A stretch of 64,000 nt of DNA from Antitrichia curtipendula (lineage: Eukaryota > Streptophyta > Bryopsida > Hypnales > Leucodontaceae): NCBI GenBank assembly GCA_951230915.1, contig OX579641.1, forward strand, positions 24,406,254 through 24,470,253, in the 5' to 3' direction. The translations under genes were made by a program, and so were the position numbers. The notes beneath the pieces are model-generated. The model was not told the DNA's origin. It ran no database searches and was given only the letters and a program-made list of their open reading frames with translations. This document shows, one piece after another, positions 21,039 through 53,935 of the stretch (position 1 is the first letter of the stretch; each line of letters begins with the position of its first letter).

Positions 21039-21190
21039 GTTTAGTTATTGATTAGAGATTTCTCTAATTAGAAACTAATATTCTTTTTCGGGTTTTCAAT
21101 TTTACTCCGGCATCCACATATTGGTGCGTCTGCCGGGAGTTTAGACGCTTAAATTCAAGAGTCTAGACTTCTCAAAGCAACGACGTAGTT

Positions 21191-22285: not shown

Positions 22286-22385
22286 CTCCAAGTCTTTCCG
22301 ATTTTCTAGTGTTGTATTGGATTTCCTATATATATATATGAGTGGTGTGGATTTGTGTGAATTGGGAGTCATCTTTTGGTAATAG

Positions 22386-27540: not shown

Positions 27541-27575
27541 GAGGTTGTGTTGTTGCAGGTATAGTAGATTAGCAT

Positions 27576-27791
27576 ATGGATCGCAGGGCGTATCGACCAC
27601 CGTTGGTCTTACCATCAGGCGTCTTCAACATTCGCATACATTGCGTTGAGAAGCGTAGCTTCACCCAGTATCTCTTCACTCACTTTGGATTACAGTTTCT
27701 ACGTCAAGTTATGCAAAGTCCTTGGCCTGTGCCGATACCAGTGGTCACCTACGGTGACACTTGGGAGTGTGTCATTTACATCTTGATCTGA
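27576..27791 (+). CDS. Small ORF in the retrotransposon 3' part, unknown
   Basis: A 71-codon frame beginning MDRRAYRPPLVLP. It lies 65 bp after a TATAAAA and just after an acceptor-like TTGTTGCAG, so it could start a separate transcript or be a spliced exon. No domain is recognised, and it may be chance. Confidence 0.25.
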   Translation: MDRRAYRPPLVLPSGVFNIRIHCVEKRSFTQYLFTHFGLQFLRQVMQSPWPVPIPVVTYGDTWECVIYILI

Positions 27792-27935
27792 GCATTCTCC
27801 ATCTCTTTCTATCTTTCTCTTAGTCCAAACTCGCTCCGTCGAGGGAGGAAGGCCGGTTTGAAATCTTTTTTGGCTATAGGTCCAAGCCAACTCCATTTGG
27901 GGCGGACATTAGGGGATTAGTACAGCATAGCAATC

Positions 27936-28442
27936 ATGCCGGGTCACGCAACCAATGCCCCAGGTCCATCATCTTCGTCAACAGTGGTTACAGATCCGAG
28001 ACCGACGGAGGAGCCACCTACCGATCCAGTGGAGGAACCAACTTCAGAGCCGATGGAGGAGCTATCACCGCAGCAGCCGTTAACACAGCCAACCGATGAA
28101 CCAGAACCAGCAACCGACCTCTGGGTCGAAGATTTGGCAGAAATGCCAGATATCTTGATCAGTTTGTCCCAGGTCATGAACTCACGACGGCGACCACGTG
28201 AGGAGATGGAGCAGCCGGGGCAACCACATCCGCTGCGGCGACATCCCCCCGCACCCGAACCGTCGGGACCTTGGCCTCCGACAGGCAGATCCCTCATGAT
28301 CTACCTGCAGAACCAGTTGGATGCAGAAACTGGCAGGCAGACCATGTTTGAAGGCCAGTTCTACAACCTGGATGATTTCGTCACCATTCGCAGGCGATCT
28401 TTTGATAATCGGCACGAGTTCACAGCGTTGGGACCCTTATAG
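27936..28442 (+). CDS. Pro/Glu-rich ORF of the retrotransposon, unknown
   Basis: A 168-codon frame begins MPGHATNAPGPSSSS. Its first half is Pro, Glu and Thr rich. Its second half (LQNQLDAETGRQ, FYNLDDFVTIRRR) looks like a folded segment. It stops at TAG, after which the same frame stays open for 27 codons (ALPPEQRALYTLEVMNQI) to the next stop. The TAG is therefore plausibly a mutated CAG. The codon use is GC-rich like gag. No function can be assigned. Confidence 0.4.
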   Translation: MPGHATNAPGPSSSSTVVTDPRPTEEPPTDPVEEPTSEPMEELSPQQPLTQPTDEPEPATDLWVEDLAEMPDILISLSQVMNSRRRPREEMEQPGQPHPLRRHPPAPEPSGPWPPTGRSLMIYLQNQLDAETGRQTMFEGQFYNLDDFVTIRRRSFDNRHEFTALGPL

Positions 28443-28546
28443 GCTCTACCGCCAGAACAACGTGCCTTATACACGTTGGAGGTGATGAATCAAATCCTCA
28501 CATTCTTTGGAATGTTGTAGGGCTTGACCTTTCGTGTACATCTTGA

Positions 28547-28727
28547 AAAAAAAAAAAAAAAAAAAAAAAAATCACGCTCTGCAGGGGTACTTATAGCTCC
28601 TGACCGGTACAACGGACGTCTCCGGCCGTCGGGACTCGGTGGCGTTGGTCACTGTATTATTTTCCCGTCGACAACGGTTCGAACCCGGACCGGTTCACGC
28701 TATCCCCTGAGCTAGTGAAAAGGCAAG
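28547..28727 (-). mobile_element. Candidate tRNA-derived SINE with oligo-T end
   Basis: On the minus strand, TAGCTCAGGGGATAGC resembles the polymerase III box A/D-arm, and GGGTTCGAACC resembles box B/T-loop, about 28 nt further on. About 150 bp later the strand ends in a run of about 24 T (A24 on the plus strand, 28547-28570). The length of about 180 bp and the T-tail recall Au-type plant SINEs. No clear target duplication is visible, and the A-B spacing is short. Confidence 0.4.
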
Positions 28728-29050
28728 AAAGTCACCGACAACCGCGGCTGGAGACACCTTTTAAAGGGAGCTCCTGAGCATTGAGGTCTTGGACCCTTTC
28801 CCTTTTGTTTTTCTTTGTTTTTGTTTTTGTTTTTCTTCTTTCTTTTAGTCCAAGCTCACTCCGTTGAGGGAGGAAGGCGGTTTTGAAATATTTTTGGCTA
28901 TAGGTCCAAATTTGTTCTATCAAAGGCGGACAGGGGGTTTTCTTCTCTTTTCTATCTTCCCCTTAGTTCCAAACTCACTCCGTTGAGGGCGGAAGGTTGG
29001 ATTTTTATCATTTATTCTCTATAGATCCAAGTCAACTCCGATTGAGGCGG

Positions 29051-29519
29051 ATGGGAAAAAACAAGAAAATTAAAAACTAGAAAATAGAAAATGAACAAAA
29101 TTTTTTCACTCTTCTCTGATGCCAGATCCCTTAGATCTACATCAATCATTTTCCAGTCATTGAGTCGGTGTCTTCTCTCTTTGTCTTCTCTCTTTGTCAC
29201 TTTTTAAGTCCATCGCAGTATGTCAAAACCAGTCTTCTGTACGTCCCTAGGTCTTTTCGACTTTCTCACAGCTAGTGGTCAGTCGCACATCTTGATACCT
29301 AAGGCACTTGATGGTGGATCTTAGAATATTTTCCGGGTCTTAAGAGGGTGTAAAACAAAGGGCAGTCCTCCAAGAGATTCGTGTATTAGAAGTTCACCCC
29401 AGTATGATCGCCACCGTAGTCAAAAATCTGTATATATTGACCGTTTGCCCTTGGATAGATGTAGCAAGAGAGTCTGGGTCCCTATGATTTTGCAAATCAT
29501 ACCGCAGATGGCCGCCATA
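29051..29519. other. Retrotransposon 3' untranslated part before the 3' LTR
   Basis: No convincing ORF. The last bases before the LTR (GGCCGCCATAT) are not purine-rich, so the polypurine tract, normally next to the 3' LTR, is not obvious. A partial purine run GCAAGAGAG lies about 55 bp upstream. Confidence 0.5.
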
Positions 29520-32500
29520 TGTGAGCCCCCGATTCGTCACTCGGGACTCACGCTTTTCTTTTTGTTAATTATTATGATTTTGAGTGTAGTTTAAACGTAA
29601 AAAGACCTAAAAAGAGTGTAAGACCAAAATAGGTGTGGCACATATCCATATAGCATTTGGTCACTTATATCTATAATCCCCTCAGACTAAACCCAATTCC
29701 CATTGTAAATAGACTAAAATCGGGATTCCGAGTGATTAAAACGGGTTTTTGGTAAATAGGGCTTAAAATGCCAAACCGAGGGCTAGGTAACCTCTGAGGG
29801 CTAGATTTGGTCCGAGGGAACACCGTTGAGGTCAGATAATCCATTTCCGACGATAGGTTTCACTTTCCCCATTTTACCGACGAAATAGCAGAAACCCCGA
29901 ATTGTTAGCCTGCAGGAGTTACAACCTCACGACCGACGCCTGGGAGGAATCGGAGGATGCCGCATGTCATTTTGGGGTGGAAATCGCATTTGGAGATCAA
30001 CGGCGAAATCGGTTTGCCAAGATTCCCCCCGACAAAGAAGATTCCCTGGTGGCCGGATTTTGAAGGAGAAGTCAAGATTTGGTTCTCCTCCGACCCTTGT
30101 GCAAAGTAAGAATGTTAGCTTGCACATCCTTTGTGGAATTCCATGAGAGGTTCCATAAAAAGTTTCGGAATTTTCTAACTTGCAGAAAATGTCTTTCCGA
30201 ACGGTCAACCGCCAAAACCTACGATGGGAAATTCTTGGAAATTACCCAGGTTGCAGTAAAATCTCACTAAAAATTAGAATAGCATCTTTTATGTTAATAA
30301 GATGCCCCAACAAGTTTCAAGACATTCCGATAGTCAGAAGTACCCGAACCGGCAAGATTCCCCGGAAATTGACAAATTTAAAGAATGCGGGAAAGTTGAC
30401 CGGCGTCCCGGGAGCATACGGAATCGGAATGAGGTCAAAATTGGGTCTTTTCTTACTCCCTTATACCTTTTAGAGAACTTAGGCTAGTTACTTTTCTCAG
30501 AAAGGTCAAACTCCAAAAACTGGGTTTTTACCTTAATTTGGTGTTTAGTTAGCGCTAAGTTTTGTTGAGTTTTTAGCGTCAAAATAGGGGGTGGGGGGAC
30601 CCTTGGACTAAAAATGGCCTTCTGAAGCCAATGGCGCAATCCGTTTGTGATTTGGAGTAAACCTCCAAAAGTTAGAGTTTTAATCCAGCGTAGAAAGTGA
30701 AAATCTAGAAGATTAGGATGAAAATCTTAATTGATAAGATTACCGTGTAGGAAAAGAGAGGGGGGTGAGGGCCTTGGAAAACTATATAAGGGCTCTCATT
30801 TTCCTCTCATTTCACCCCTTTAGGTTCATTTTGAACCTCTTTTCAAGTTTTGGGTCCATTTAGTTGGATTTTGGCCATTTTAGGCCACGTTGCCAAATTC
30901 TTGTGTTTTTGGAGCATTTTTAGCTCCATTGTCACTCTTTCTCAAGCTCTCTTTGAAGGACATTGGGGTCCCTTCAAAGATTGCCTTGGTTTTCTTGTGC
31001 TTTTGTACTACTTGTGTTTTGTTGAATTTTTTTGAAGTCCTTGTACTAATCCTAGGGAAACCTCTTTATGCCCGGCTTGCCGCTTGGAGGAACCTCTAGT
31101 GCTTTATTTCTAAGTTTCTTTGGTGGATTTGAGCATTACTAACTTGTGTTTAGAAGTCTTGAAGTACTAACCTCCACTAACCCATGTAGTAGGAGTATCC
31201 TTGTCAACTAACCCTTGTTGCCTTTGTCCCCGTACTCCTTTTACACGGCGAAGCTTTGACTTCAAGGGTTGTGAGTTTATAGAATTTAGATGTGTTTTTC
31301 CAAGCACGGCGGAGCTTTGAACCCCCTTTTGTTTTAAATTATGTCAATTGTGAGAGGACGGCAAAGCTTTGATTGTAGATGTTTAGGAATCACTAAAATT
31401 TTTAGAGAAACCAAAACTACGGCGAAGCTTTGACTTTAGATGTTTAGGAATCACTAGTATTCTTAGAGAAAACCGAAACCACGGCGAAGCTTTGAACCCC
31501 CTTGTGTTTTAATTTGTGTCAATTGTGAGAGGACGGCGAAGCTTTGACTTTAGATGGTTAGGAATCACTAGTATTTGTAGAAAAACCAAAACTACGGCGA
31601 AGCTTTGACTTTAGATAGTCTAGACTTTAACACTGTAAAGGGAAAAAATGAAGATGGGAAACGCTTGAAAACGTTCCAACCATCTAGAGTTGGCCAAGGG
31701 CCAAGTAGCAATTTCCTTTATCCATAATTTTCCATTCCAAGCTAGTTAGCCTTAAACAAAAATTTAGATCACCAGTCCAGGCACCAAAATTCAATTGGGA
31801 CCAGCAGTCACCGAGGCACCCAGTCCAGGCATCGAAATTCAGTTGGGACCAGCAATCACCGAGGCACCCAGTCCAGGCACCAAAAATTCAATTGGGACAG
31901 TAGTCACCGAAACCCAGTCCAGGCACCGAAATTCATTTGGGCCGGAGCAGCACCCAGACTGGCCCAGTCCCGCAGGCTAACACGTGTCCCGGGGTGACGT
32001 GGCGGAAGAGGGGTCCCGACCTCCCGCAGGCCGACACGTGGCGAGGGTAACGGGGGCTGCCTCCTCCGACTGCTCCCGACCTGCCTGGCTCCGAATTCCA
32101 ACTACTGGCCTGTCCAGGCCCCAAACTGGTTTCAAAAAAAAAATTGGATTATTGTTTTGTCCTAAAAAAAAAATTGAGATAGTAGTTGGCCTTTCAACAA
32201 ATTTTGAAGTTGGATGTGGGAAGGGAAAAATTAGATAAGAGCTTACAAGAGGTTGGAGAGGTGAAGAGGTAGAATAGGAAAAAAGTTGGGATGTCTTAGA
32301 GGTAGCGTTTCCACTACCAAAAAGAGTCCAAAAAAAAAACATCATAAAAGAAGAAAATCACTTAGAGCTCTCATAGGACTCTTCAAGCTCTTGGAAAACC
32401 ACAATTGTAAGTAATTTGAGAATGGGGAAGGTAGGAGGATGAAGGGAGATTAGGATTAGGGAGAATTGCTAAGAAATCTTGAAGAGTCAATTTGGACCAT

Positions 32501-33995
32501 TAGTTTTTGGATAAAATAATAATTGACTTAGAAGAAGATAGGAGTCAATTATTATTTAGGAGTCAAGAGTCAATTATTTATTCCAACTAGTCAACCTTTG
32601 GGATAACTAAATAATTGAGTAAGAATAGTGTAGAAAGAAAAGGAAGAAGGAGAGTTAGAAAGAAAAGGAAAGAATAGGAAAATTTGTATTAGAACCCAAA
32701 CTTTAAGCGGTGAGCAAAAATACAAAAGCACTCTCAACCATGGTGGACCAAGAATATTTGGATGAGCTCATCTACAACACGGCGGATGAAGCTCAACTTG
32801 AGGTAACTTACTAACTTTTACCTTTCTTTTGGAATTGTTTAGATTAGCAACTAAATACTTAGCCGGAACTTCAAGGTCGATTCAGAGAGTCTAAATTAGG
32901 ATTTTTCCCAAGTTTATCTGTCAAAGTTGGTAGATTATGATTAGAGCTCTCCGAAAACACCTTAAACTTAGAATTTCGATCTAAAACGAAGGAGTTAGCT
33001 TTGGATGAAGTTTAGAGTAAAAATCGGATGAAAAAGATTTAGAAGTGTCCAAGTGAAAGTTAATTAGAAAATTAGCAAGTAGAAGTAATCTGAATCATAG
33101 GAGTGGAATTAAAAGTAAAATTCAAAAGTAGGATTAGTAGTAATCAACGGATGAAGTTTGAGGAACCGATTAGCGGTCAAACTTCATCCATCAATAACTT
33201 TTGCTAGGATAAGTTTAAAATCAAGTTAGAGACCATTTTGGAAAGCTTGAATTAGCCTCTTTGAGGAACAAATTTCAAAGTACTAAAAATAGCAACTGAC
33301 CAGAATCCATTCCAAGCTTCAAAGAGCAAGGGGGGATAGAATTAGGGTGTCCAAACGTGATTAAGGAAGAAAGTTAGCATTAGAATGTTAGAGTGACAAC
33401 TTCAAGTGTTCCAATCGTAGTTCAAGCTTTGAGAAATACCAAGTTACCTAGAAGAAATAGAAGGATGAAATTTGGACCAGGAAACGGATGAAGTCAACTT
33501 AGATTAGTCCAATTAAGACTAAACTTAGAATTTAGTTAGAGTTTCACTATATCAAACTAGGGTTTAAATTTAACGATTAATTGAAATAGGGAACAAGTCC
33601 AAAGTCATGGATGAAGTTTAATTTGCCCCGGAAAGGCTAAAACTTCATCCGTTGATATCTTTTGCTAGGAGAAGGGGATAGGGATGAATTTTATGTTTTT
33701 AGAAATGGCATGAGATTCTCTACAACTTAGGATTGCTAAATTTAGACTGTAGCTAGTTTCGTTCAAAAATCACCGTGGCCTCTTTGATTGAAGTAGTTTT
33801 GGTAGAAATTGTAATTGTTGCATTCTTTTTGAGTTTGATTGCAATTGTTGGTATTTAGGGACTTAGAAAAAAGATCCATTGCTTGGAAGGCACAATGGAC
33901 CGACGTTAGGACACCCATAGGTTAGAATTTCTCGAAATACTAAGAACCTGGTTGTGTTTACTTATTTACCAAGGGTGGGTAAATAAGCGCTCACA
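29520..33995 (+). repeat. 3' long terminal repeat
   Basis: Its 4476 bp are a nearly identical direct copy of 16541-21016 at constant offset 12,979, again TGTGAGC to GCTCACA, with no indels. About four transitions separate the two copies. It is followed by CCTCC. Its last bases supply a stop codon (33962-33964) in the truncated transposase frame. Confidence 0.95.
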
Positions 33996-34000
33996 CCTCC
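33996..34000. repeat. Right target-site duplication of the LTR retrotransposon (CCTCC)
   Basis: Matches 16536-16540. It lies within the transposase codons for Trp-Gly-Gly. Confidence 0.95.
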
Positions 34001-36142
34001 CCATTGGCGATATCGGAAGTGCCAAAAAGCGAGCCACAACTCCAATTCACGCAGAGCATCTTTTGAGGCTGCCCCGGATGATAACCACCAAGATCGAATG
34101 GCCAAATACCTTATCTCAGCTTCCTCCATAGTGATTGAGTCTTTATATTGCTTGCATAGACGTATATGTTGGTGTTGCATATCCGGTTTGATGAGCTTCT
34201 GGGTATGCCGGTGCAACAAAGTACTCCAGTGCAGAAGACATGTTCGTTCGCGATTGACCATCTCCATTTTGGGGTTCCCCGTGCCATATACAATTCGAAC
34301 AGCATTCCAATTTGCTTGCGCGCTATCTGCCATGAAGCCCTTGAAGTTTGTATTCACTACGCCGTTGCGTCTCATGACATCATTTAGTAACCTCCACATA
34401 ATGCACTGGATCTCAGTATCTTCAGATTGCATGTCACAAACGACAATTGTCATGACCTTTCTACATCCTGTGTCATAGACATGGCAGGCCATGGTGGTCC
34501 AATCCTTTACTCGTTTTACGTGATCAAACATGAGCCACGCGTTCTCCAAATCTCCTCCCACTTGCATACGCTTCACCAAGTCTACCCCACTACCAAGTCC
34601 ATTGACCAACATCTTAAACAAGTACATTTTTTCTTTTCCCTGTCCAGGAAAAATGCTCTCATGAATGTATTCAAACTTTAGATTTCGTTTCATATTCATA
34701 ATGCTATCTATGACCCCACCTTTTCCAGTGCTACGAAATGAAGAAATAGTGTTACGGATGTTCGGGGAACTAAGGATTTGGAACCTATCCATGACATCTT
34801 CCAGCGACTTCCCCCGCAGCAACTCCTTTGGACCTTCACTGTTGTGTATGAGGTAGTTCTCCAGAAATTGTTTACTAGCTGCAAGGGCTATGACTGAGTT
34901 AGTGGCACTAGGGTTTTTTAAGACTTCACCTGCAATGAGCTCCGAAATGGTGTCTAACGACTCTCTACAGGTTCCAGAAGCAACAGGATGCATGTGATTA
35001 CCCAAATGGATGCATGCTCTTGTCATCCCTGGAGTATCACTATAAACGTAATAAACTCTAGCATCACAAGTACTGACGCAGTGGGGTGAACTTTTGCATA
35101 TTTTGCAAAGAACAGTAGAATCCTTTGGAGAGAGTGCACCAACATAGAAAGGAGTAGGAGTATATCCACACCATTCAGTCTCATTCCGCTTGGAAGATCG
35201 CCTGAAATAGTCACAATCGGAATTGTTACAAATCAAATGACCTGTACAAGATGATTTTCGGAATTTCAAGCTATCCTGATTATGGATATTGGATGTAATG
35301 GTCCGACACCATGCATGCCCATCGTATCGTTTATCCATACCCTGTAAGTTCCCAGCAGCGGATGATGAAGACGGAGCACGAAGAGAAGGCAACTCGAATA
35401 CTACGTTTCCATCAAAGTCTGCAAGAAGGTACTGTACTTTCTGATGGTCGAGCAAATCATAATCTAATGCAGCAACCTCGTTCCTAGATCCGCGAATAGA
35501 TGCTAGTTTGCGAAGGCACCCAACGATACTGTGCCCGACTAAAATATTTGGGTGAGTTGGTGGTCTTGAGTGAGTGGACAAAGCAGGACTAGTAGTAGGC
35601 GTGGAGTACCTACCGGATGTTGTTTCCTGTATGTCACTACAGACACGTCTAGGAAGTGTTGTTGCAAGACCTGGTTGACTAAGCGACTCTCCCTCCGGCT
35701 CACTAGATAAATCTATCACAGGGACATTAACTTCTAGCTTCACTCGGACAAGTTGAATTGGAGTCGTAGCAATTGTAAAGCGATCACTGTCCACAGAAGT
35801 TCCTATATTTTGGCCTACAAACAGCATGTTAACAGTAGAGTGGTCTGACTCCCGTGGCAATCTCTCAGTAGAAGTATCCTGCATGATAGAAGGCAAACCA
35901 TATACCCTATAACGCCCTCGACGGAGGTGCCAGCAATGACCGTCCTCTAGAATTAACTTTGGCATATGGATGGACTCTATTAAGTGCCCCAAATCAGACA
36001 TGACTTCCTCCTCAACATAAATACTAGATTGGAGAAATCCGAAACGAACATAAAGGAGGTGAGAAGACACTATAGCATACCCTCCTTCTCCTAAAGGCAG
36101 AACTAATGGAATTTCACGGCCATCCGCTCTAATGGTGGCCAT

Positions 36143-37628: not shown

Positions 37629-40600
37629 ATGGTGCGGAAGCCAGCGACCAGGAATGCAGCTCCAAGAGGACGCAGCCGCGACGGAGATCGCGTCAACGAC
37701 GAGTGGGATGGCGGCCGCGAGAACGACGAAGGGGCGTGAGACAGAAGCAGTCCCCAGAAAACGCATCGAGCCGAGCCTGCGAGCGACGCCGGAGAAACCC
37801 TGACAGTCCAGGGCAACAAGGTGACATTTTTTGGGTTTCGTCTCGCCTTTCAATTTGCTTGCGCATCAGGGTTTAGGGGGTGACCAGTCCCTCTCGGCGC
37901 CGAGAGCGTCCAGCTTTATCCCCGAGGTGATCCCACTGGGACGGGTGATCGGGTCAAGGTGAAACATTTTTTTGGTTTCGTCCTGCCCTTCAATTTGTTT
38001 GCGCATCAGGGTTTAGAGGGTGACCAGTCCCTCTCGGCGCCGAGAGCGTCCAGCTTGCTCCCCCAAGGTGATCCCACTGGGACGGGTGATCGGGTCAAGG
38101 TGAAACATTTTTTTGGTTTCGTCCCGCCCTTCAATTTGCTTGCGCATCAGGGTTTAGGGGGTGACCAGTCCCTCTCGACGCCGAGAGCGTCCAGCTTGCT
38201 CCCCCGACGTGATCCCATTGGGACGGGTACTAGGGTCAAGGTGACATTTTTTTGGTTTCGTCCCGCCCTTCAATTTGTTTGCGCATCAGGGTTTAGAGGG
38301 TGACCAGTCCCTCTCGGCGTCGAGAGCGTCCAGCTTGCTCCCCCGACGTGATCCCATTGGGACGGGTACTAGGGTCAAGGTGACATTTTTTTGGTTTCGT
38401 CCCGCCCTTCAATTTGTTTGCGCATCAGGGTTTAGGGGGTGACCAGTCCCTCTCGGCGCCGAGAGCGTCCAGCTTGCTCCCCCGACGTGATCCCATTGGG
38501 ACGGGTACTAGGGTCAAGGTGACATTTTTTTGGTTTCGTCCCGCCCTTCAATTTGTTTGCGCATCAGGGTTTAGGGGGTGACCAGTCCCTCTCGGCGCCG
38601 AAAGCGTCCAGCTTGCTTCCCCGACGTGATCCCATTGGGACGGGTACTAGGGTCAAGGTGACATTTTTTTGGTTTCGTCCCGCCCTTCAATTTGTTTGCG
38701 CATCAGGGTTTAGAGGGTGACCAGTCCCTCTCGGCGCCGAGAGCGTCCAGCTTTATCCCCGAGGTGATCCCACTGGGACGGGTGATCGGGTTAAGGTGAA
38801 ACATTTTTTTGGTTTCGTCCCGCCCTTTCAATTTGTTTGCGCATCAGGATTTAGGGGGTGACCAGTCCCTCTCGGCGCCGAGAGCGTCCAGCTTGCTCCC
38901 CCGACGTGATCCCATTGGGACGGGTACTAGGGTCAAGGTGACATTTTTTTGGTTTCGTCCCGCCCTTCAATTTGTTTGCGCATCAGGGTTTAGGGGGTGA
39001 CCAGTCCCTCTCGGCGCCGAAAGCGTCCAGCTTGCTTCCCCGACGTGATCCCATTGGGACGGGTACTAGGGTCAAGGTGACATTTTTTTGGTTTCGTCCC
39101 GCCCTTCAATTTGTTTGCGCATCAGGGTTTAGAGGGTGACCAGTCCCTCTCGGCGCCGAGAGCGTCCAGCTTGCTCCCCCGAGGTGATCCCACTGGGACG
39201 GGTGATCGGGTTAAGGTGAAACATTTTTTTGGTTTCGTCCCGCCCTTTCAATTTGTTTGCGCATCAGGGTTTAGGGGGTGACCAGTCCCTCTCGGCGCCG
39301 AGAGCGTCCAGCTTGCTCCCCCGACGTGATCCCATTGGGACGGGTACTAGGGTCAAGGTGACATTTTTTTGGTTTCGTCCCGCCCTTCAATTTGTTTGCG
39401 CATCAGGGTTTAGGGGGTGACCAGTCCCTCTCGGCGCCGAAAGCGTCCAGCTTGCTTCCCCGACGTGATCCCATTGGGACGGGTACTAGGGTCAAGGTGA
39501 CATTTTTTTGGTTTCGTCCCGCCCTTCAATTTGTTTGCGCATCAGGGTTTAGAGGGTGACCAGTCCCTCTCGGCGCCGAGAGCGTCCAGCTTTATCCCCG
39601 AGGTGATCCCACTGGGACGGGTGATCGGGTTAAGGTGAAACATTTTTTTGGTTTCGTCCCGCCCTTTCAATTTGTTTGCGCATCAGGATTTAGGGGGTGA
39701 CCAGTCCCTCTCGGCGCCGAGAGCGTCCAGCTTGCTCCCCCGACGTGATCCCATTGGGACGGGTACTAGGGTCAAGGTGACATTTTTTTGGTTTCGTCCC
39801 GCCCTTCAATTTGTTTGCGCATCAGGGTTTAGGGGGTGACCAGTCCCTCTCGGCGCCGAAAGCGTCCAGCTTGCTTCCCCGACGTGATCCCATTGGGACG
39901 GGTACTAGGGTCAAGGTGACATTTTTTTGGTTTCGTCCCGCCCTTCAATTTGTTTGCGCATCAGGGTTTAGAGGGTGACCAGTCCCTCTCGGCGCCGAGA
40001 GCGTCCAGCTTGCTCCCCCGAGGTGATCCCACTGGGACGGGTGATCGGGTTAAGGTGAAACATTTTTTTGGTTTCGTCCCGCCCTTTCAATTTGTTTGCG
40101 CATCAGGGTTTAGGGGGTGACCAGTCCCTCTCGGCGCCGAGAGCGTCCAGCTTTATCCCCGAGGTGATCCCACTGGGACGGGTGATCGGGTTAAGGTGAA
40201 ACATTTTTTTGGTTTCGTCCCGCCCTTTCAATTTGTTTGCGCATCAGGGTTTAGGGGGTGACCAGTCCCTCTCGGCGCCGAGAGCGTCCAGCTTGCTCCC
40301 CCGACGTGATCCCATTGGGACGGGTACTAGGGTCAAGGTGACATTTTTTTGGTTTCGTCCCGCCCTTCAATTTGTTTGCGCATCAGGGTTTAGGGGGTGA
40401 CCAGTCCCTCTCGGCGCCGAAAGCGTCCAGCTTGCTTCCCCGACGTGATCCCATTGGGACGGGTACTAGGGTCAAGGTGACATTTTTTTGGTTTCGTCCC
40501 GCCCTTCAATTTGTTTGCGCATCAGGGTTTAGAGGGTGACCAGTCCCTCTCGGCGCCGAGAGCGTCCAGCTTGCTCCCCCGAGGTGATCCCACTGGGACG

Positions 40601-43600
40601 GGTGATCAGGTTAAGGTGAAACATTTTTTTGGTTTCGTCCCGCCCTTTCAATTTGTTTGCGCATCAGGGTTTAGGGGGTGACCAGTCCCTCTCGGCGCCG
40701 AGAGCGTCTAGCTTGCTCCCCCGACGTGATCCTATATTTCGTGATGCCGCGGACCACATTAACTTTGAGTGCTGTACTGTTTTCCAGGTTTTGCCCGAGG
40801 CTACTCCTGATCTTTAGGTGGACATGGAACCTGAGAATGTTGAATCGCCTATCCCTGATCAGCCGGACATATCAATGGCTGAAGACATGGAAGAGGACGG
40901 ATCCGAGGCCGATGATTTAGAACCAGTGGATGACTTCATTTCGGAGGATGCTCTACGTAGATCCCAGAAAGTGAATTCGGTGTCGTCCATCTCAAGTCTC
41001 CGAATGAAGCCCCATTCCGTATCTCGACTCCGAATTCCATTGTGTCGCCTGTCTGCGATGCCTATGGTTAGACCAGCATTGAAGTCTGACTTGACTAGGC
41101 TAGCTGAAGAATTTGTCTTTGGGTACAGGGATGGGTCGGCCGTCTTCTATGTTTCAATTACAAATGAACGGGGGAAGAGGAGCACGTCAAAGAAAGTGAG
41201 AAGGTTGCATGGGGACCTCTTTGGAATGAAGAGAATGATGTGTTTAATGGAATTTTGAGTTCTACGCCGGAGTTGAAGCATCTCCAGAACTCTAAGTTCT
41301 TTGTATGCGATGGTAACCATCGGCTTCTGGCTTGGTCATCATATATTTCTCATCACCATGATAACGACCGAGATTGGCATGTTTCCGTTGACTCTATATT
41401 ATAAGAGACAAAGGGGCGGATTGGAGAAGTCATGCATGTTATGCACGACATAAATAAGTACGTGCTGAAATCTCTCCTCCTGTTTTGTGACTCTTTTGTC
41501 ATGTTTTCCTATGAGCCAAGGGATTCTGACGAATTGTTTGATTTGTAATTACAGACACACTGAGAATTCATTTATCCGGACAAGCTTGGTGCACACCTTG
41601 TACCGGGTCCGCAAATACGGAGTCATGCCCTTGGATAAGTTCGCCGATCACTTGAGTGCCTCTGAGATGTTACAATGCACTCAGAATTTGAGGAAGTCAT
41701 GGTACAGCATGTCGTTAGAGGTGTTTACGGCATTCATTTATCGTGTAAGTGTCACTGTTCCCCTTGAAGTACACTTCAGTTACATATATTCTTCAGTTCT
41801 CATTGTTTTCTTATCTCACTTGTCTTATCCATTTTCCGTTTCAGTATGAAATAGCTGCCGCAGCAGATACTGCAGTGAGGTTGTATAAGGAAGACACGCC
41901 AATGGAGGAGCAGACAGAGAATGGAGTTCTGGCTGCGATGAGACTAGGAACGAAAGAGAAGACAGCTGTTTTGACCAAAAAGTTGGGGAAGCTCACTGCT
42001 GTGGCTAATCCAAGTCTCGGGAAGGAGTGGCTTGATGAGGTGAGTTCTCATTTTGACAGATTTTCAATTTCTCAATGTTGTTGAATGTATTTGTAATTCT
42101 AATTTTTCCAATGATTCTGTGAAGATTGAGCGCCACTGGTGTACAAATACTATCCTAGAGATGACTCTCGACAAGTTGCAGATGATTACTACCTGCAATG
42201 TATCGTCAGAGCACAAAATCATGTGGTTACGTTGGTGGAACTCGTCCACCCAAACTAGAGAGGCTCGTCGATTTCCTATGAAGCCCGTGGGTGAAAATGA
42301 CTTAAAAGCCTTCTTAGTCAAGGCGTGTTGGTACGCAGGGGTGAGTGACTTCAACTGGTGTTTTATCTCCCCATTGTTCTCTACATCATTTGAATTCGTA
42401 ACTTAAATCTCTCTACAGGAGTTGACTTGCATGTTGATGCTTACCTAAAACCGCTTCCATCTCTTGAATGTTCAAATACAGGATGCAGTAATAGAAATGT
42501 TTGACAATATCGTCAAGAAGGATAATCTGGATTTGGCCATGGACTTGCCTCAAGAACCCGAGGGTTTAGCTGAATACATCGAGGGCTGGAGAATCCAACT
42601 GTGGGATCATTCATTCCTTTCTCACTTCAGAGGCCACGATGTCTTCAAAAAGTCTGATTTGTTTTCGAAGCACAAGGGTTCTGACCTCGTGGTCAAGCGA
42701 GTAATATTCAAGTAAATTTTTATTTGAACTGATTATTTTCAAATGCAATCAAATTTTGTTTTCTAGGGATCTCGTTTATATCACAGCTCTGAGACGTATT
42801 TACCTTGTCAGGTTCTTCAAGTACGAGTTGCTTTCAAAAGCAGCAATTGCAAAGCGCGACCTGCCTCTATTTCTAAGTACATGGCTAGACGTTTCCACCG
42901 AACACTGCATGTTTTCTCCTTCACAGTTGCGGTGGTGGACAAGTGCTCACTTGAAGTCCGGAGCATGGTATTTGGACTGCCCTCTTGAGTTCACACCTCT
43001 ACCGGAGGAGAGATTGAAACGTTCCATTGACTCCCAAGAACTTGTGCCTGAGTACGACGAGTTCAATGGCTTGGACGAGGATGCTAGAGCAAAGGCAATG
43101 AAGAGGAGGGAGGAGGCCGACAAGAAGATTGCCGTGAAGAACTCCGAGGCAATCGACAAGGCGCTTCAACGAGTGACGAAGAAGAAGTTCAAAACTGCTG
43201 AGAAGGTGAAGGTGACGTCTAAGGAGAAGAATGTGGAGCAGACTCCAAAGCAACTGATAGCCGGTTCATCTGTCGTGGATCAGGGTTCTCGATTGCAGAC
43301 ATCCATTTCTAGAGGCTCGAAGCGTGGATCGGAACGATTAGCACTCACGGAAACGGGCTTAGTTCGTGGACCCACTGTCATTGACTTCGTCAATGACACA
43401 GACATCTCCGTTGATGAATTCATTTGCAACTCGTCTCTAACGGTAGTTCTTGCTGATCCACTGCCTCCGCTTTACCATGACATACTAAAATTCATGGAAA
43501 AGGTGCGGCCCTCTCCTCTCATCTACAATGTCATTTTCACTCACTTGTTGTCTTTTTGTGTATTATACTGAATTTCCTCTTAATTGCAGCACGCAACGGA

Positions 43601-44982
43601 TAAAGATCGATCCTTCAAAGGAGTTCGAAGTACGTCGCCACGGGTGGACCTCATCATCACCGACATGCCTGAAGGGCTACCTGTTCCTACTGTGTCCAAG
43701 CCTCCTTCTGCGATTCCAAAGTGGAATCAGCGCTCCGATTCCTGGCTTGAATCTCTTTTCGAATTCGCCGATGGACATTTACAGGATGATGGGGCACTAC
43801 TTATTATTTATCCTTACAGGGCCCAAGCCCAAGCTGACATCCGTAGCTATGTAGATCCCTATGCTTTCAAATTACGGAAGGAATGGTGGGGGGCAAACCG
43901 CTTGCACTTAATGTCGCCCTTGGATCGTTCATTGACGGTAATGTCCCCTCTCGTGCCAAGTTCTTAGCTTCACTTCAATATTTTTCACATTCTGGTAAGA
44001 GCTGAAGTGACATTGATTACTTTTGTTTTGTAGACGTTGCGTTTCGGAATTCAGTTGTTTGTGAGGAACTTGCCGAACGTTGGTCCTTCAAAGTTTGCAT
44101 TCCAGCCCTGTCCGACATTGCTTGCACTCGAGGTGGATGTTGAGCGTGACGACATTATGCAGAACTTCACTACCTCGGAAACGATGGCCATGGACAAGGG
44201 TACTCCGTGGAGAGGGGCGCGTGAGAAGGACCCTCGATTTATGGCCATGTTCATTGAAGCGTCATCTATCCCGGGTGACATGGTTCTAGATTGTACGGCT
44301 TCAACTGGTACATTGTAGAACCAACCCTTCACATGTTAATGATGTAAATTACATTTCAAAGCTGTTGCACTTGATGTAGTCAAATTTTAATTTCAATTCA
44401 ATGTTCATGTTTCAGGGGCCTCAATCCACGCTTGCAGGCTTCTAGACAGGCACATTATAGCCCTAGAAGAAGACAAGGCCATCTTCGATGCAATGTTGGC
44501 TCCTCTCATTCATCTAGTTCATGTTGTTCCTGTAATACCTGCACCTGTGACATTGGCCTCTAACGATCCACATGTAGAGGAGGTCGTGGTTCAACATATT
44601 ATCAAGAAATCTCAATTCAGTAAGTAAGTCTTTTTTGAATTTGTACTTGTTCATGTTCATTTCACCTTGGCCTATCTTAAGACATTTATAACTCTTTTTT
44701 TTTCCATACAGCATGATTAGTAATGAGGTGCAACACTAGCCATTGTACTCTTCGCCCGGGTTTTTTCCTAGTCCGGAGCAACCGTACCTACTTCCCCCCT
44801 ATGCCGAGGCGTTAGCAGTTCAATTTGCATCCCAGCGCCTTCTCCCTACACGGAATAAGGCTACTCCTTTAGACCCTAGGGTGTTGGAATTTGTAGATGT
44901 GGAAGTTGAAGAAGCCGATGAGGAGACCTCTAGTAGTGATAGCAGTGTTCATTCTCACTCAATGTCTTCTTCGTCTACGTGA
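37629..44982 (+). pseudogene. ParB-like domain / N6A-N4C-type DNA methyltransferase fusion gene, broken
   Basis: Eleven exons with GT-AG introns and fully consistent phases: 37629-37820, 40818-41457, 41555-41744, 41845-42039, 42125-42340, 42419-42711, 42767-43502, 43590-43937, 44034-44307, 44416-44623, 44712-44982. The sum is a multiple of three once a 1-nt deletion near 41196 is allowed, giving about 1187 aa. Order: basic Arg-rich start; acidic segment; ParB/sulfiredoxin-like motif FFVCDGNHRLLAW (exon 2); long helical region; Lys/Glu-rich coiled-coil-like linker (exon 7); methyltransferase with motif IV (DLIITDMPEGLP, exon 8) before motif I (VLDCTASTGG, exons 9-10) and IALEEDKAIF. This order is typical of beta-class amino-methyltransferases, which methylate adenine N6 or cytosine N4 from S-adenosylmethionine. 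ParB-methyltransferase fusions are known in bacteria and phages. Damage: TGA 37737-37739, the frameshift, TAA 41402-41404, TAA 42446-42448, TAG 44737-44739. The exon 2 start could also be 40788, which would add an in-frame TAG. Confidence 0.8.
37818..40735 (+). repeat. Intron-1 minisatellite, 21 units of 139-142 bp
   Basis: GCGCATCAGG marks each unit, 21 times from 37861 to 40659, at spacings of 139-142 bp. Each unit contains a run of T after 'caaggtgaca', 'ggtttcgtcccgcccttcaa', a telobox AGGGTTTAGGG (some units AGGGTTTAGAGG) and usually the perfect palindrome CTCTCGGCGCCGAGAG. Spacings repeat as 141/142-139-139, a three-unit period of about 420 bp. The variant CATCAGGATTTAG recurs 839 bp apart, suggesting six-unit blocks. 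The first unit starts at the exon 1 donor (CAAG|gtgaca), so the array probably arose by duplicating the exon-intron junction. Confidence 0.95.
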
Positions 44983-45689: not shown

Positions 45690-45823
45690 GAACATTATTT
45701 TAGAATTTCTATCCTACTGCTGTATTTTTCATAAACACGGTCATAGGTCCCACCCTAGAATTCAGTCTAAAAAACTGTATGCTCCCAGGCTCACGCTCGC
45801 AAGCTCACAGAATAGCAACCCTG
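45690..45823 (-). repeat. Right terminal inverted repeat of the MULE
   Basis: Read inwards on the minus strand it begins CAGGGTTGCTATTC then TGTGAGC, with GCGAGC and GTGAGC words, and contains GGACCTATGACCGTG about 70 bp in. It matches the left end in block order, though the spacing differs. Confidence 0.75.
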
Positions 45824-45833
45824 CATAGAAATG
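45824..45833. repeat. Right target-site duplication of the MULE
   Basis: CATAGAAATG identical to 14390-14399, directly after the right terminus. The identity continues two further bases (CA). Confidence 0.8.
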
Positions 45834-45835
45834 CA

Positions 45836-48580
45836 AGCATATTGGTACAAGTAGATATTCTACAACCATTGAAGGTGCTTATAGCATAAACATCTACGAA
45901 TATAGATATCCGTCTATAACATAGGTACTTTACAATCAAGAAAGTCTTTTATAATATAGACACCTATAACGTATGTATATAGACTTTTAGGCTCATGTGC
46001 TTATAATCATAGGTTGACATAATAGCAACCCTCATGGTTTTGGCAAGACTAAAATCATGTTTTAGATTTTTCACACTAAAGGCTATTTTTTTTCCTTGTC
46101 TGCTTAGACTCTTCATTTTCTGGTTGCCTTAACTTTACTTATTTTCTCTGGTTTTGTCTTTTCTAAATTGATATTATTTTTTATTACTACATCTTTTTCT
46201 TGATTGTTTTGTCTTTTCAACTTAACGATCATTGAATAAACATTTTAGAATTTTACACTTTAAAAAGTCACTCTCTACAATTTCTAATATACTTTTAAAA
46301 AATTCCCAAAATTAGGCTTCGCAGAAATTTAAAAAAATTCTACAACCTTTTGCACATTTTACTACTAATATTTTAGAAATTTTACCCTCACTCTAGTGTG
46401 CATGTACAAGTAATAAAAACAGAATAAAAGTGATGACTTTATTTATTTAGAAAAAAACAAATTTATGACGTGTAGAGGGACAATCAATTTTGCCACTAAA
46501 ATCAATCCTAACAATGGAGATAATGGAAAAGACCTAAATTTTTCATATGTACTAGACTTTGTATTTAATCCCTAAAGTCCCATTGGTCCTATGGGAGCCA
46601 AAATGCAACTTTGAGGAGGCTCATACGGTCTCAATATTCATCACAATGTACTAAAACTTTGTGTAAAGCTAGGAAAGTACATAAGTTTTTTGGAAATATA
46701 ATTTTTATTTCAATTAGTACCCAAAAGTAAAAGTTATTGCACAAAAAGTCAAAAATAGAGGTTAGGGGCAGTCCAAATTTAATTAATTAATTTTTAATAA
46801 TAATAATAATATTTTTCTAATACATTATATTTGGACTAGTGATGAGAAAGTTATGGACGATCTTGTTTTTCAAGCAATCTAAAGGATGTTCTTGGAAAAA
46901 AAATTGTCCAACTTTGAACTATGCTAATATCTTCCAATCCGTACAGTCAAATTTGATGAAATTTTTATCACATGATTTCAGACAAGTGAAGTACAAGATC
47001 CTATGGTTAGATTCTTAAAATATATTGTTGTTTTTGCTTTCTTGGATGAATGCAATAGAAATTATAATTTAGAGTGTTTTTTGACAGAAAAATGGCCTTC
47101 AGACTTTAGGGGTTAAAAATATATACAAATGTTAAAGACCAAGTCATGTTATGCAATTGATTGGATGAAATAATCCTACATCATCTTATATTTCATTAAA
47201 AACAATTTAATACCTAGTTTAATACTTTAATACTTTAATACCTAGTTTTCAAATTCAGCCTTTAATCCCTAAAGGACTGACTTAACCCTGAAAGGACATA
47301 GGCGTATTTGAGGTATAAATAATGAAAAATTGCCACTCTTTAGGACACTAAGATAAAAATAATATTTTTTTTTCAAAATTCAACCATACAAATTTGTACT
47401 ACTAGACTACTATAGGAATGTGTGGAAAAAATTTCAAAAACTTTGACCAAATGGATTGATAGAATATAAAGTTTAAAATTAGACAAAAAAGGCCAACAAC
47501 CTTTACCTCCTCCTAGAGTGAAATTTTCACACTACACATGGTTATTTTTTTACATTTACATCTTGTATCATATAAGTTATACACCTGTCAAATTTTAGAG
47601 TAAAGGAGGAGTTTTGCAAAAGTTTCCCAATCAAAATAAAAGATTCAAGGCAATGTAACTTTTGATCCAAGCACCCAATTGAAAAAAAATGAATTATATT
47701 CCTACTTGACGGGTACATTTAGTCATACCTTGTGTCAAAATTTTGTAAACATCCGACCAAAATTGACTTCTTAGGAACCTATTCAAATTTTTAATTGTCC
47801 ATTCAATAGACAATTGTCCTTTGGGTATTAGTAAATATGCAAAATTATATGGAGTATTCATTACACTAGCATATTATGTATACTGTAAAGGATGTTGTGG
47901 AGCCATTGGTCTAGGAGTAGGCAACTATAAGTTCCCCAATTTGTCTTTAACCTTATAGTCAAAATGTCAAAAAAAAATGATGGATGGAAAATATGATTTT
48001 AGCCACTTACAATGGAGTTTGCGTTTCTTCCATCCAAATATTTCATGAAGAGAGTGCTAATCGTTTCAACCATTTTGTTGTACAAATTTTGAAAATTCTT
48101 TTGTATAAATATTTAATAAATTTTAGAAAAATAGTATTGGTATTATACGATTTATGACTCTAAAAGCTTTATAAAAATAAAATATATAATGTGAGTGAAA
48201 GTTAAATTAAAAAAATAAATCAAGAAACGCCAAAATTTTGTTTGTAATAAAAAATTGAAATAATAATTATTTGAAAAATTATTTGTATTATATAAAATTA
48301 TTGGTGATAATACACGCAAATCTAATCATATGCCTCATGGAATCTATGGTTAATAATCTACAATTTTCATTCAAACTAGCCTGCCTTGTGCCGTTGTCAC
48401 AATTAAATTTTTTTTTTAAAGTGATTTTTTAATTCATAAAAACTTTGAAATTCAATAAAAAAATTTCCATGAAATGAAATGCCATAAAACAAAGCCTGTG
48501 CACCCCTCCTCACTGAGCACTTTCCAATTGTACCAAGTATGTGACTGGGGGACGCACAATGCAAGAGATTTCAACCTCAC
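45836..48580. other. AT-rich non-coding DNA
   Basis: No supported gene. Parts near 46.9-47.5 kb resemble, in diverged form, parts near 4.4-5.3 and 12.5 kb, as expected of old interspersed repeats. Confidence 0.55.
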
Positions 48581-48736
48581 AAACAAAACAAAACAAAACA
48601 AACAAACAAACAAACAAACAAACACACAAACAAACAAACAAACAAACAAACAAACAAACAAACAAACAAACAAACAAACAAACAAACAAACAAACAAACA
48701 AACAAACAAACAAACAAACAAACAAACAAACAAACA
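48581..48736. repeat. (AAAC)n microsatellite
   Basis: About 38 tandem AAAC units are interrupted only by one CACA variant near 48623 and by AAAAC variants at the left end. The long Cys/Leu/Phe/Val and Gln/Thr/Asn/Lys frames across it are artefacts of the repeat. Confidence 0.95.
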
Positions 48737-48929: not shown

Positions 48930-50234
48930 TTGAGTTTTCGACACGTGGCATCATGTGGTTGGACAGAGCCTTTGGAAAGCTCAAAGTGGAAAGTTCGTCG
49001 TCTTCTTTTACCACACTACCGAAGTTGGGTGTGTGCAGCGAATTCTTGTTGTGTTATCGTTCCTCGCTCCTCTGTAAGCTCCGTTACAAGCGCGAGCTGC
49101 GTCGGGCTGCCACCAATCTGTCCCTGGCAATAAGCAATCACAGTGTGACCTAACACAAATAAATAGCTCATCGAAAGGAACGCGGTGAAATTTGGTGGTG
49201 TTTATAGGTTTCCGCGGCTTCCTTTTTCAGGTACCTCTCAAACGCATAATTCGCTTGGCTTGATGACCGTAGAGCTTCGGATTATACTTCCGGGAGGTTT
49301 TCAATCTCTCTTTTTCTATTTTCGTTGCTTTTTTGTTGCAATCGGGGCTATTTGTCGCGTGACTAGTTTTTAGGGTTTGGGAGGGCACTTGCTTTTGGGA
49401 CTCTGATTGCGTTTTTCGCACTCTTGAGGATCGTCAGGTTGTGGAAGATATGAGGGTATACGTCTCGCGTTTGCACCTTGAATTGAATTGCTGAATTTGT
49501 AAGGGACTGGAACAGTCTTAAGTTTTCGGGGTTTTGGTGCTCACGATTGGGTGGTTGGTTTTGGGAGGAGGGAGGATCTCTGCATTTACTTTGAGTTTTA
49601 TTTTCCCGCGTTGCTGTGAAGCTGTCGATGGGTTCTTAATTGATTAGACGGCACAGTGAATTTGTCTTGAAGCGAAGTAATTGTTACGCTTTCATGTAGC
49701 GTTTCGGAGTCACGTTTGATTAGTAGGTTTTCCTTTCACGATTGCGGCTGCTACGTGCTGAAGTTGGTTAGCGCCTTTAGTTTCGAGTCATGTTTGAAAT
49801 TTGGCAAGTTGAAAAGGTTTGTACAAAATTTTCTTTTCAGATGTCTTTTTGGCTCCTCTGAGCGCTTACTTCATAGTAATGCGTGCTGAAATTTACGGAG
49901 GAACAATGATCTGAAAGCTGATATGAAGTTCAAGCAGTACATCTTACTCTCTTTCCGTGTCGAGTTGATAGAATTGTCCCATTGTCCTCTGTTTCTGTTA
50001 GATAATTCGCTTCCAAAGGGTTTGCAGAGGGGTTTCGGGAATCTAAGTTTGTATGTATTGAAAAGTATTTGTCTATGGGGAAGAAGGATGAGATGGATAG
50101 GGTTTATAGTTTTGGAGTTCCTATCTTACTAAAACTATCGTTTTTTTTGCAGTGCTCTATAATAAAGAAATCAGGCAGAAAAGTTGTGGCAGTTGCATGA
50201 AGGTGTTATTTCCTGAACACGGTGGTTTCTCATT
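48930..50234 (+). promoter_or_regulatory. Promoter and 5' untranslated region of the ATG18 gene
   Basis: A G-box (CACGTG) lies within CGACACGTGGCA at about 48940. GC content then rises compared with the flanks, typical of a plant promoter and 5' UTR. A T-rich acceptor, TTTTTTTTGCAG, ends at about 50152, 80 bp before the start codon, suggesting at least one 5' UTR intron. The exact start site is not determined. Confidence 0.45.
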
Positions 50235-52184
50235 ATGGCCCTAGCAGCGCCTTTGCAAGTGCCGCCCTCTCAGCAGGGGCATCACAATAAAATTAGTTCT
50301 GATTCCATGTCGCCTTCACCAGTCTCTTCCACCTCGCTCACGGTTTCGCCTCAGACTTCACCCGGGCGAGAGATACCCCAAGCAACACCTGTGGAGGAAG
50401 CCCTTCTCTCAGTCGCTTTCAACCAGGATTATGGATGCTTCTCGTGTGGCACACAGACAGGTTTCCGCATCTACAATTGCGATCCTTTTAAAGAGACATT
50501 TCGTCGTGAATTTGATGGTGCCGGCATTGCTCTAGTGGAGATGCTGTTCCGGTGCAACATCTTGGCTCTTGTTGGTGGTGGCAAGGCACCTCGGTACTCT
50601 CCCAATAAGGTCATGATTTGGGACGATCAGCAGAGCCGGTGTATTGGTGAGCTCTCATTCAGGAGTGAAGTTCGAGCTGTTCGTTTGCGAAGGGACAAAA
50701 TTGTTGTCGTGCTCGAATTTAAGATCTACGTGTATAATTTCGCTGATCTAAAGCTGCTTCACCAAATTGAGACGTTGTCGAATACTAGGGGCATTTGTGC
50801 ACTCTCTCCTGGACCAACGTCATGCGTCCTTGCATGCCCTGGGCAGCGGCTAGGGGAGATCCGGATCGAGTTGTACAGTGTGAAGAAGACTAGGTTTGTG
50901 CAGGCGCACGACTCTTCTCTTGCATGTTTGGCACTCAGCCAAAATGGCGCTTTCCTGGCCACAGCTAGTAACAAGGGTACCCTTATTCGCATCTTCAGTA
51001 CTGTGGATGGTTCGAAATTGCAAGAGGTAACAAAATTTTATATTACGTCGTTTGTTGCTCAACATGATTGAGCCATCTTACTTTCGCTCTGATATTATTT
51101 TTTGATGAATATTTTTGAAGATATCGTCAAGGATAGTCACTGGCAACATGTTTTGGTTCACTAAGAATCATCGTTGAGTTGCTACGGATGATCTCTTAAT
51201 GATTGTTTTCATGTCCTTCGCAGCTTCGACGAGGAGTTGAGCGAGCAGAGATTTTTAGCATCTCCTTCTCTGCAAATGCACACTGGCTTGCTGTTTCTAG
51301 CGACAAAGGCACCGTGCATGTATTTGGTTTGAAATCCACAACTGAAGAAACTCGCTCCGAGATCATTTCGACGGCTGCGTCACCATCTTCCAATGGAACG
51401 GCAATCTCATCTGGTGGAGGCGGGGGTTTTCTCCTTGGTGCCCCGGCATCATTATTGTCGTTTGCAACGGCAAATGCGGGTTCATCATTAGCCTTCATGA
51501 AAGGTGACCAATTTATTTATCTTGGGTCTATTCCTTTCTCGCTAGCTATCAATTTGTACCTCAGGACTTCTTGAGTCTGCATGCAATTTATGAGGACATA
51601 GAGTCCAAAATACAGGACTAGAGTTGTTTCCTGTGGTGGCTTGTTGAAGTCACTATTATCTGCCGGATTAAACTCATCCACGTAATGCTCATACTCTAAC
51701 TTTGGCTATTGATTGCAGGTGTCCTGCCCAAGTACTTCAGTTCAGAGTGGTCTTTTGCACAATTTCGTGTTCCTGAAGAGACGAGGACAATTGTTGCATT
51801 CGGCCCACAGAAGAATACTATTGTCATTGTTTGCGCAAATGGCAGGTATGTTTGTAAGATCAAATGTGATTCAAATTCAAGTTTTAAAGCTGTACCCTTG
51901 ACACGATTCTGGCTACGGTGCTTTACAAAAGTTGGCCTTGACAATCATTCTTTGCTGTCTATTTGCTAAGCTGTATTTGTTATTTGGGCTCAGGCTGAGC
52001 GTCTAACCCATTAATTGTCCTTGCAAAATTTGTATTTGGAGCTCATTCTGACAGCATTACTGTGACATTGTCCAGTTATTACAGGTGCTCCTTTGATGGA
52101 AACCATGGTGGAGAAATGGTGCAGACTGAGTATGAGCGTTTTTTGAAGCATGATGGAACGGAGGAGGAAACTGTCAGTGTATAA
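50235..52184 (+). CDS. ATG18: ATG18/WIPI autophagy protein (PROPPIN)
   Basis: Four coding exons: 50235-51026, 51224-51503, 51719-51845, 52085-52184, with GT-AG introns in phases 0, 1 and 2. Together they encode 432 aa, close to the usual plant ATG18a length of about 420-430. The protein has a Ser/Pro-rich N-terminus (residues 1-50) and then a seven-bladed WD40-type beta-propeller. Residues 265-268 are LRRG, matching the F/LRRG motif that binds phosphatidylinositol 3-phosphate. Family phrases [17 protein letters not shown] and [11 protein letters not shown] precede it, and [20 protein letters not shown] follows. Proteins of this family bind PI3P on the growing phagophore, work with ATG2 and help autophagosome formation. 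All exons are open and splice sites canonical, so the gene is probably functional. It may be one of several ATG18 paralogues. Confidence 0.95.
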
Positions 52185-53494: not shown

Positions 53495-53935
53495 TCGTGT
53501 GACTATGTAGAAGCCTCATAACCCATAAACGATGCTACGGCCATTTTCTAGTCAATGAATGACATAGAATCTTTGTGTATAGGATACAAGTGCAACTATT
53601 CATCCTTGGAATTCTACATCGAAAGGAGAGGTCTTATATAGTAGTTTGACTTCCAATGAATGCTTCAGATTTTTTTAACCCTTAAATAATGAGCCGATCA
53701 CCGTGGAAATCATCTATTAAGGTACTGTGTGAATTGTTGGCTTAAAAAAATGAAAAAGCATTCATTTGAAGACAAACTATTGTAGAAGACCTTCTCTTTT
53801 AGACACAAAATTTGGAAGATGAATAGTTGCACTTTTGTCTTGCATGAAGAGATTCTTTGTCATTTGTCGTCCAGAAAATGTCCTCCACGTCGTTTGTGGG
53901 TTAAACCAACTATTTACACAATCACACAATGCCAA
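53495..53935. mobile_element. Imperfect foldback (long inverted repeat)
   Basis: A left arm of about 200 bp (53495-53695) pairs with a right arm (53740-53935). Matching words include 'gtgcaactattcatc' at about 53590 against 'gatgaatagttgcac' at about 53820, and 'aatgaatgctt' against 'aagcattcatt'. This suggests a MITE-like or foldback element. No coding capacity and no defined target duplication. Confidence 0.6.

Follow-up and report, generated by a model that had tools for sequence, protein, structure and literature searches.

The window analysed here, a 64,000-nucleotide stretch of the genome of the moss Antitrichia curtipendula, contains a DNA transposon with two divergent genes, one encoding a transposase and the other a protein with a predicted ParB-like fold and a methyltransferase (MTase)-like domain (the ParB-MTase gene). 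We propose, with a probability of roughly 0.5, that the product of this second gene binds the element's own 16-bp palindromes and acts as a sequence-specific self-recognition factor. The proposal is based on a layout like that of VANDAL elements and their VANC proteins, together with the co-occurrence of a predicted ParB fold and a 16-bp palindrome. Compared with the initial annotation of this DNA, which described a transposon-borne ParB-like/DNA amino-methyltransferase fusion gene, the replaced motif IV of the MTase-like domain and the conserved 16-bp palindromes are new.

The palindrome, CYCTCGGCGCCGAGRG, was repeated in several subfamilies of the element, both within introns and between genes. 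Across the genome searched (400 Mb in 303 contigs, with the window on contig C9) 342 sites were found, and the reversed 16-mer used as a control gave 0. Each of the 50 sites that were listed, all of them on contig C1, had a listed element exon no more than 15 kb away, and such exons account for 2.3% of that contig; these sites are not independent, as many share one element or the local amplification described below. The complete elements number five: the window element and those designated E9, E11, E20 and E23. With at most one mismatch allowed, counts of the core per element were 3, 9, 8, 9 and 22, against an expectation of 0.0 from 30 Markov resamples. Of the 22 cores in the window (0.03 expected), intron 1 of the ParB-MTase gene held 21, and the last lay in the transposase intron. 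A palindrome in this transposase intron was present in 5/5 complete elements (with two mismatches in E9). In E20 and E23, weaker palindromes, carrying one or two mismatches, were also detected 3′ of the MTase gene.

A perfect core palindrome was present in 19 of 20 fetched genomic pieces, the remaining piece (L012) having an altered one. In window-like copies (group 1), CTCTCGGCGCCGAGAG was found within 139-bp arrays; in group 2, CCCTCGGCGCCGAGGG was dispersed with no array of the 139-bp type. The subfamily represented by L041 and L046 had six perfect sites, three of them inside an unrelated 87-bp array, and the intergenic DNA of E9 gave no blastn match to that of E23 beyond low-complexity sequence.

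The ParB-MTase gene of the window was modelled as eleven exons, listed here with the intron that holds the palindrome array:

37629 to 37820, plus strand: exon 1
37821 to 40787, plus strand: intron 1, with about 21 units of the 139-bp repeat and 21 palindrome cores (0-1 mismatch)
40788 to 41457, plus strand: exon 2, encoding the N-terminal tail and the larger part of the ParB-like domain, CDGNHR included; a frameshift and stops lie here
41555 to 41744, plus strand: exon 3
41845 to 42039, plus strand: exon 4
42125 to 42340, plus strand: exon 5
42482 to 42711, plus strand: exon 6
42767 to 43502, plus strand: exon 7, encoding the middle region, a charged linker and the start of the MTase-like domain
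43590 to 43937, plus strand: exon 8, with the motif IV position, DMPEG
44034 to 44307, plus strand: exon 9, as far as motif I (DCTASTG)
44416 to 44623, plus strand: exon 10, encoding the end of the MTase-like domain
44712 to 44982, plus strand: exon 11, encoding the C-terminal tail, with one stop in the window copy

All introns were GT-AG with consistent phases, in agreement with the eleven exons and spliceosomal introns first described for 37629-44982, and the spliced protein has about 1,150 residues. Intron positions were common to other genomic copies, apart from minor deviations in some of the models. Several in-frame stops and one frameshift disrupt the window copy. The end of exon 1 was placed at 37820 rather than at the nearer GT, 37736, because this GT was missing from nine comparable copies (ten were aligned; L017 was not comparable). 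A model in which exon 1 is spurious and the gene starts at 40824 was likewise rejected, and exon 1 was kept as real, because its reading frame is uninterrupted in other group-1 copies and its splice junction is in phase 0. Next to the palindrome, the 139-bp unit (window 37817-40732) contains another inverted repeat, which is imperfect and GATCCCACTGGGAC-like.

For the ParB-like part, the predicted structure has a ParB/sulfiredoxin superfamily fold. Profile searches of this part gave no family match above cut-off, and comparison with PDB sequences gave no match at E≤10. The annotated fusion of a ParB-like part to a beta-class methyltransferase fold (see below) is supported, the ParB-like half as a predicted fold. 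The CDGNHR motif was present in 118/120 listed homologues (CDGNHK in one, no match in one), and its arginine may correspond to the nucleotide-pocket arginine of a G-x-x-R type motif. A search with the single protein sequence returned nothing at E≤0.001, the homologues having come with alignment queries. The ParB-like family is widespread in environmental DNA, since 354 metagenome proteins were matched (P0017-P0136 among them), mostly on short contigs. In viral contigs and prokaryote genomes, each searched with two peptide patterns, no relative was confirmed.

The MTase-like part of the window protein, taken alone, matched PF01555 with 29.1 bits (cut-off 26.7), while the whole protein scored 25.0 bits and a group-2 domain 25.8 bits, both below the cut-off. 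Profile matches were obtained to DpnA, MboIIA and CcrM, and a close homologue of this part was found in the moss Ceratodon purpureus. Together with Foldseek and VIA, the PF01555 and profile matches gave a predicted beta-class N6/N4 fold with motif IV ahead of motif I, as the initial annotation had stated; the absence of a methyltransferase fold, which it had named as grounds for refutation, is thus contradicted. The canonical motif IV of beta-class N6/N4 methyltransferases is [DNS]PP[YFWH]. At this position 26/26 own-genome models had D[MLV]PEG and none had DPPY/F/W; HMMER aligned D[ML]PEG to motif IV of DpnA, that stretch alone being below threshold. Among 16 outside homologues, 11 cover motif IV, with DxPE in nine, DQPK in one, DVLE in one and a canonical form (DPPY/F/W/H) in none. 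Motif I of the own-genome family also lacks FxGxG, reading DCTA[AS]TG and similar, and a DL[TI]AGTG form was present in four homologues. A divergent lineage (P0007-P0010, on contigs of 200-520 kb) combines this DL[TI]AGTG motif I, which is nearer to a cofactor-binding motif, with DVPEN as motif IV.

With motif IV altered to this extent, methyl transfer to an amino group in the usual manner would not be expected, which is the chief change to the initial annotation. Judged from these motifs, ordinary N-methyltransferase activity is unlikely, because motif IV is replaced in every own-genome copy and is canonical in 0/11 outside homologues. The protein is accordingly not assigned, on sequence grounds, as an active beta-class member, and the earlier suggestion that it marks DNA is disfavoured by both motifs.

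The pairing of the two genes was assessed across the genome with 150 scored ParB-exon matches of 1,248 candidates and 62 scored transposase matches of 1,855 candidates. A ParB/MTase exon lay within 15 kb, divergent and on the opposite strand, for 57/62 scored transposases (two via separately listed copies), and no pair within this distance had any non-divergent orientation; the other five had no listed ParB/MTase neighbour. When the nine transposases that belong to a single local amplification on C1 were left out, 48/53 were in divergent pairs, and 16 of the 150 scored ParB-exon matches were near-identical copies of one amplified segment. The transposase lay in the same fetched 10-kb piece as the second gene in 17/20 cases (none in the L013, L022 and L026 pieces), and the arrangement was identical in all subfamilies examined. 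In addition, 5/5 complete elements had 10-bp duplications and shared ends, with the ParB/MTase gene inside the duplicated target sites in each. These observations bear out the placement of the gene beside a transposase within shared transposon termini. The alternative named at the outset, that homologues might be mostly single-copy host genes, was contradicted by dozens of copies paired with the transposase. On contig C1 of genome G000, about 15 near-identical transposon-bearing segments, roughly 40-60 kb apart and in both orientations, lie at 41.44-42.12 Mb; this array is a recent large local amplification, and L042 touches one copy.

The second gene is under purifying selection. The ratio of nonsynonymous to synonymous substitution (dN/dS) between subfamilies was 0.12-0.18 for the MTase-like part in 4/4 pairs, and 0.08 for the ParB-like part in the single pair with unsaturated dS; the spliced proteins of groups 1 and 2 share 66% amino-acid identity over their whole length. 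Within subfamilies dN/dS was nearer neutral (0.40-0.47 overall), as expected because copies decay after insertion.

The window element spans 14400 to 45823 and has imperfect inverted ends (33 nt, 88%). Its boundaries and remaining parts are as follows (LTR, long terminal repeat):

14390 to 14399, no strand: left target-site duplication, CATAGAAATG, read by eye
14400 to 14429, plus strand: left terminal inverted repeat, start CAGCGGTGCTATTCTGTGAGC (33 nt, 88%), ends common to four other elements
14838 to 16250, minus strand: transposase exon 2, with a SWIM-like CxC...CxH by eye; 3′ end approximate
16251 to 16522, minus strand: transposase intron, with one palindrome carrying one mismatch at 16375-16386
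16523 to 16540, minus strand: 3′ end of transposase exon 1, severed by the LTR retrotransposon
16541 to 33995, plus strand: nested LTR retrotransposon, foreign to the two-gene system, with LTRs at 16541-21016 and 29520-33995
33996 to 36142, minus strand: 5′ part of transposase exon 1, with the ATG at 36142
45794 to 45823, minus strand: right terminal inverted repeat, end GCTCACAGAATAGCAACCCTG, ends common to four other elements
45824 to 45833, no strand: right target-site duplication, CATAGAAATG, read by eye

The target duplication of the window element is 10 bp on both flanks. When completed with their flanks, E9, E11, E20 and E23 had termini identical in kind, and each had its own 10-bp duplication (AGAATTAAAC, CCTACCGCCC, TCCATAACAC and AGTCCCATTG, respectively, by eye). 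These four elements measure about 11.9-15.1 kb, and the window element about 14.0 kb minus the nested insertion. The transposase is encoded by two exons on the minus strand. Mutator-like elements (MULEs) have target duplications of about 8-11 bp. The MULE label given initially is in keeping with the 10-bp duplications and with the SWIM-like CxC...CxH, recognised by eye with conserved D, D and E candidates (five-copy alignment; S41 stops short of the C-terminal part), but Pfam gave no family, and no transposase or SWIM model, for one whole transposase (E≤10) or two transposase pieces (E≤1). Judged from these sequence features, MULE membership is plausible.

The nested LTR retrotransposon is 17.5 kb long, with 4,476-bp LTRs at 99.9% identity and a 5-bp duplication, CCTCC; it is very young, and its insertion point is in a transposase exon close to the intron. 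Flanking genes, named by eye from their translations, are F-box-like (6197-7645) and WIPI/ATG18-like (50217-51574). Scanning the window for Rfam families and tRNAs gave no matches. Self-complementary stretches resembling foldback miniature inverted-repeat transposable elements lie at 56898-57495, 53519-53903, 58033-58888 and 9045-9467, the last being related to the first, and an (ACAA)n microsatellite of about 39 units lies at 48579-48736.

In the mechanism that we propose, the protein would recognise the palindrome in dimeric form through its ParB-like domain (alternatively through its MTase-like one), in a manner akin to that of ParB on parS; loading of the parS type is suggested by the predicted ParB fold together with a 16-bp palindrome. 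The bound protein might then spread, or recruit others, across the regulatory DNA of the element, and this could counter host silencing, or license expression and transposition, as VANC does for VANDAL. The MTase-like domain would have no catalytic role and would instead bind DNA or a partner. For the ParB-MTase protein, the activities of binding, dimerisation, spreading and anti-silencing are ones that we infer. A more specific form, in which a eukaryotic transposon possesses its own ParB/parS system, is tentative, with the odds against it. In this form a ParB-fold protein, joined to a dead MTase fold used for reading DNA or contacting partners, would load at the 16-bp palindromes of introns and intergenic DNA, spread along the element and shield it from plant CG/CHG silencing, while site and protein would change in step from one subfamily to another.

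Several alternatives were weighed against self-recognition. The palindromes may be sites for the transposase or for a host transcription factor, forming a shared bidirectional promoter or enhancer, with the ParB-MTase protein aiding transposition in another way, such as nicking, synapsis or end protection. The sites lie between and within two divergent genes, and those upstream of both could be plain promoter or transposase sites; moreover, the co-occurrence of transposase and palindrome is as strict as that of the ParB gene. Nicking activity has been published for the ParB-methylase BCE_0392 (PMC5512222). However, a promoter alone sits poorly with the site inside the transposase intron and with the weaker ones (one or two mismatches) that E20 and E23 have 3′ of the MTase gene. 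Transposases are expected to bind at element termini, whereas the palindromes lie away from them. We regard this account as unlikely, though it has some standing. The view that element DNA is marked by the protein, acting as a functional DNA N6-adenine or N4-cytosine methyltransferase, was dropped as the leading one after the motif IV census, and is improbable given D[MLV]PEG throughout the own-genome models, the DxPE, DQPK and DVLE forms of the homologues and the loss of FxGxG from motif I.

A passenger origin, in which the gene is a captured fragment of no use to the element, or else belongs to the host and had elements insert next to it, could draw on the broken window copy and on the five scored transposases without a listed neighbour, but these are set against the uniform arrangement across the examined subfamilies, the low dN/dS and the location of the gene within duplicated target sites in all five complete elements. 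It is very improbable, and the low dN/dS refutes it for the most part.

Other observations weigh against the self-recognition proposal itself. The ParB assignment is without sequence-level support, its basis being the predicted fold, and a Foldseek search with the ParB-like part returned nothing below E 0.001. The most distant subfamily (L040 and L045) had no core within one mismatch and instead repeated a changed form, CTCTCGGTGGCGAGAG. Cytosine transitions in the copies amounted to 3.3-5.1% at CG and 3.2-4.3% at CHG, and were three to seven times rarer in other C contexts (0.7-1.3%), an excess expected under plant CG and CHG methylation; these scars were alike in the transposase, the intergenic DNA and the MTase gene of inserted copies. 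The palindromes were not clearly spared, with CpG-site divergence of 15/432 against 151/2792 in other intergenic DNA and all-site divergence of 2.2% against 1.8%. CpG observed/expected ratios were 0.80-0.95 in intergenic DNA and 0.60-0.75 in the two genes, but a young LTR element also had 0.82, so this difference was not used as support.

If the self-recognition proposal is correct, plant transposons would have a second and independent way of bringing along a sequence-specific factor together with the sites it acts on, here assembled from components familiar from plasmid segregation in bacteria and DNA modification in phages. The palindrome and the protein would both lend themselves to testing, with natural variants of the site available as well, and transposon escape from silencing would become a question in an early land-plant lineage. 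The protein would also be an instance of selection retaining a DNA methyltransferase fold beyond the replacement of its catalytic motif.

The moss element resembles bacterial ParB/parS in combining a ParB fold (here predicted) with several copies of a 16-bp palindrome on one element, and differs in the sequence of the site. ParB-methyltransferase fusions in phages and methyltransferases in other transposons are already known from published descriptions. Phages and prophages encode a ParB-CTPase fold fused to an N6_N4 methyltransferase (PMC12704722), which likewise unites both kinds of domain in one polypeptide tied to mobile elements; here, in contrast, the gene belongs to a eukaryotic transposon, is spliced, encodes about 1,150 residues and has a replaced motif IV. 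BCE_0392 of Bacillus cereus, a ParB domain fused to an adenine methylase (PMC5512222), is similar by its description, but is bacterial and has nicking activity. Methyltransferase-type domains are also borne by dinoflagellate and charophyte retrotransposons with DNA methyltransferases, by DIRS elements with Dam-like enzymes (PMC5890265) and by Mariner elements of giant viruses (PMC3627910); these involve other methyltransferase or element classes, and the available text of these sources mentions no ParB-like part. In the literature searched (top-ranked matches, with few subscription papers), no plant transposon with a ParB-MTase gene was found.

The closest functional parallel is with VANDAL elements of Arabidopsis, for which motif binding and demethylation by VANC have been demonstrated (PMC5735166, PMC10398659). 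As described there, a transposase and an accessory gene lie within one element, and a short motif unique to the element occurs at high density in non-coding DNA, introns and the region upstream of the transposase among it; the motif is often in tandem repeats, varies between families and forms arrays that come and go. Such enrichment of a short motif in the element's non-coding DNA was also found here. The VANC motifs, YAGTATTAY and AGTTGTCC, are short and are not described as palindromes in the portions of these papers available, whereas the moss element has a palindromic motif that several subfamilies have in common. The moss protein also differs in having ParB-like and MTase-like parts, and its likeness to VANC would be one of function only, by analogy.

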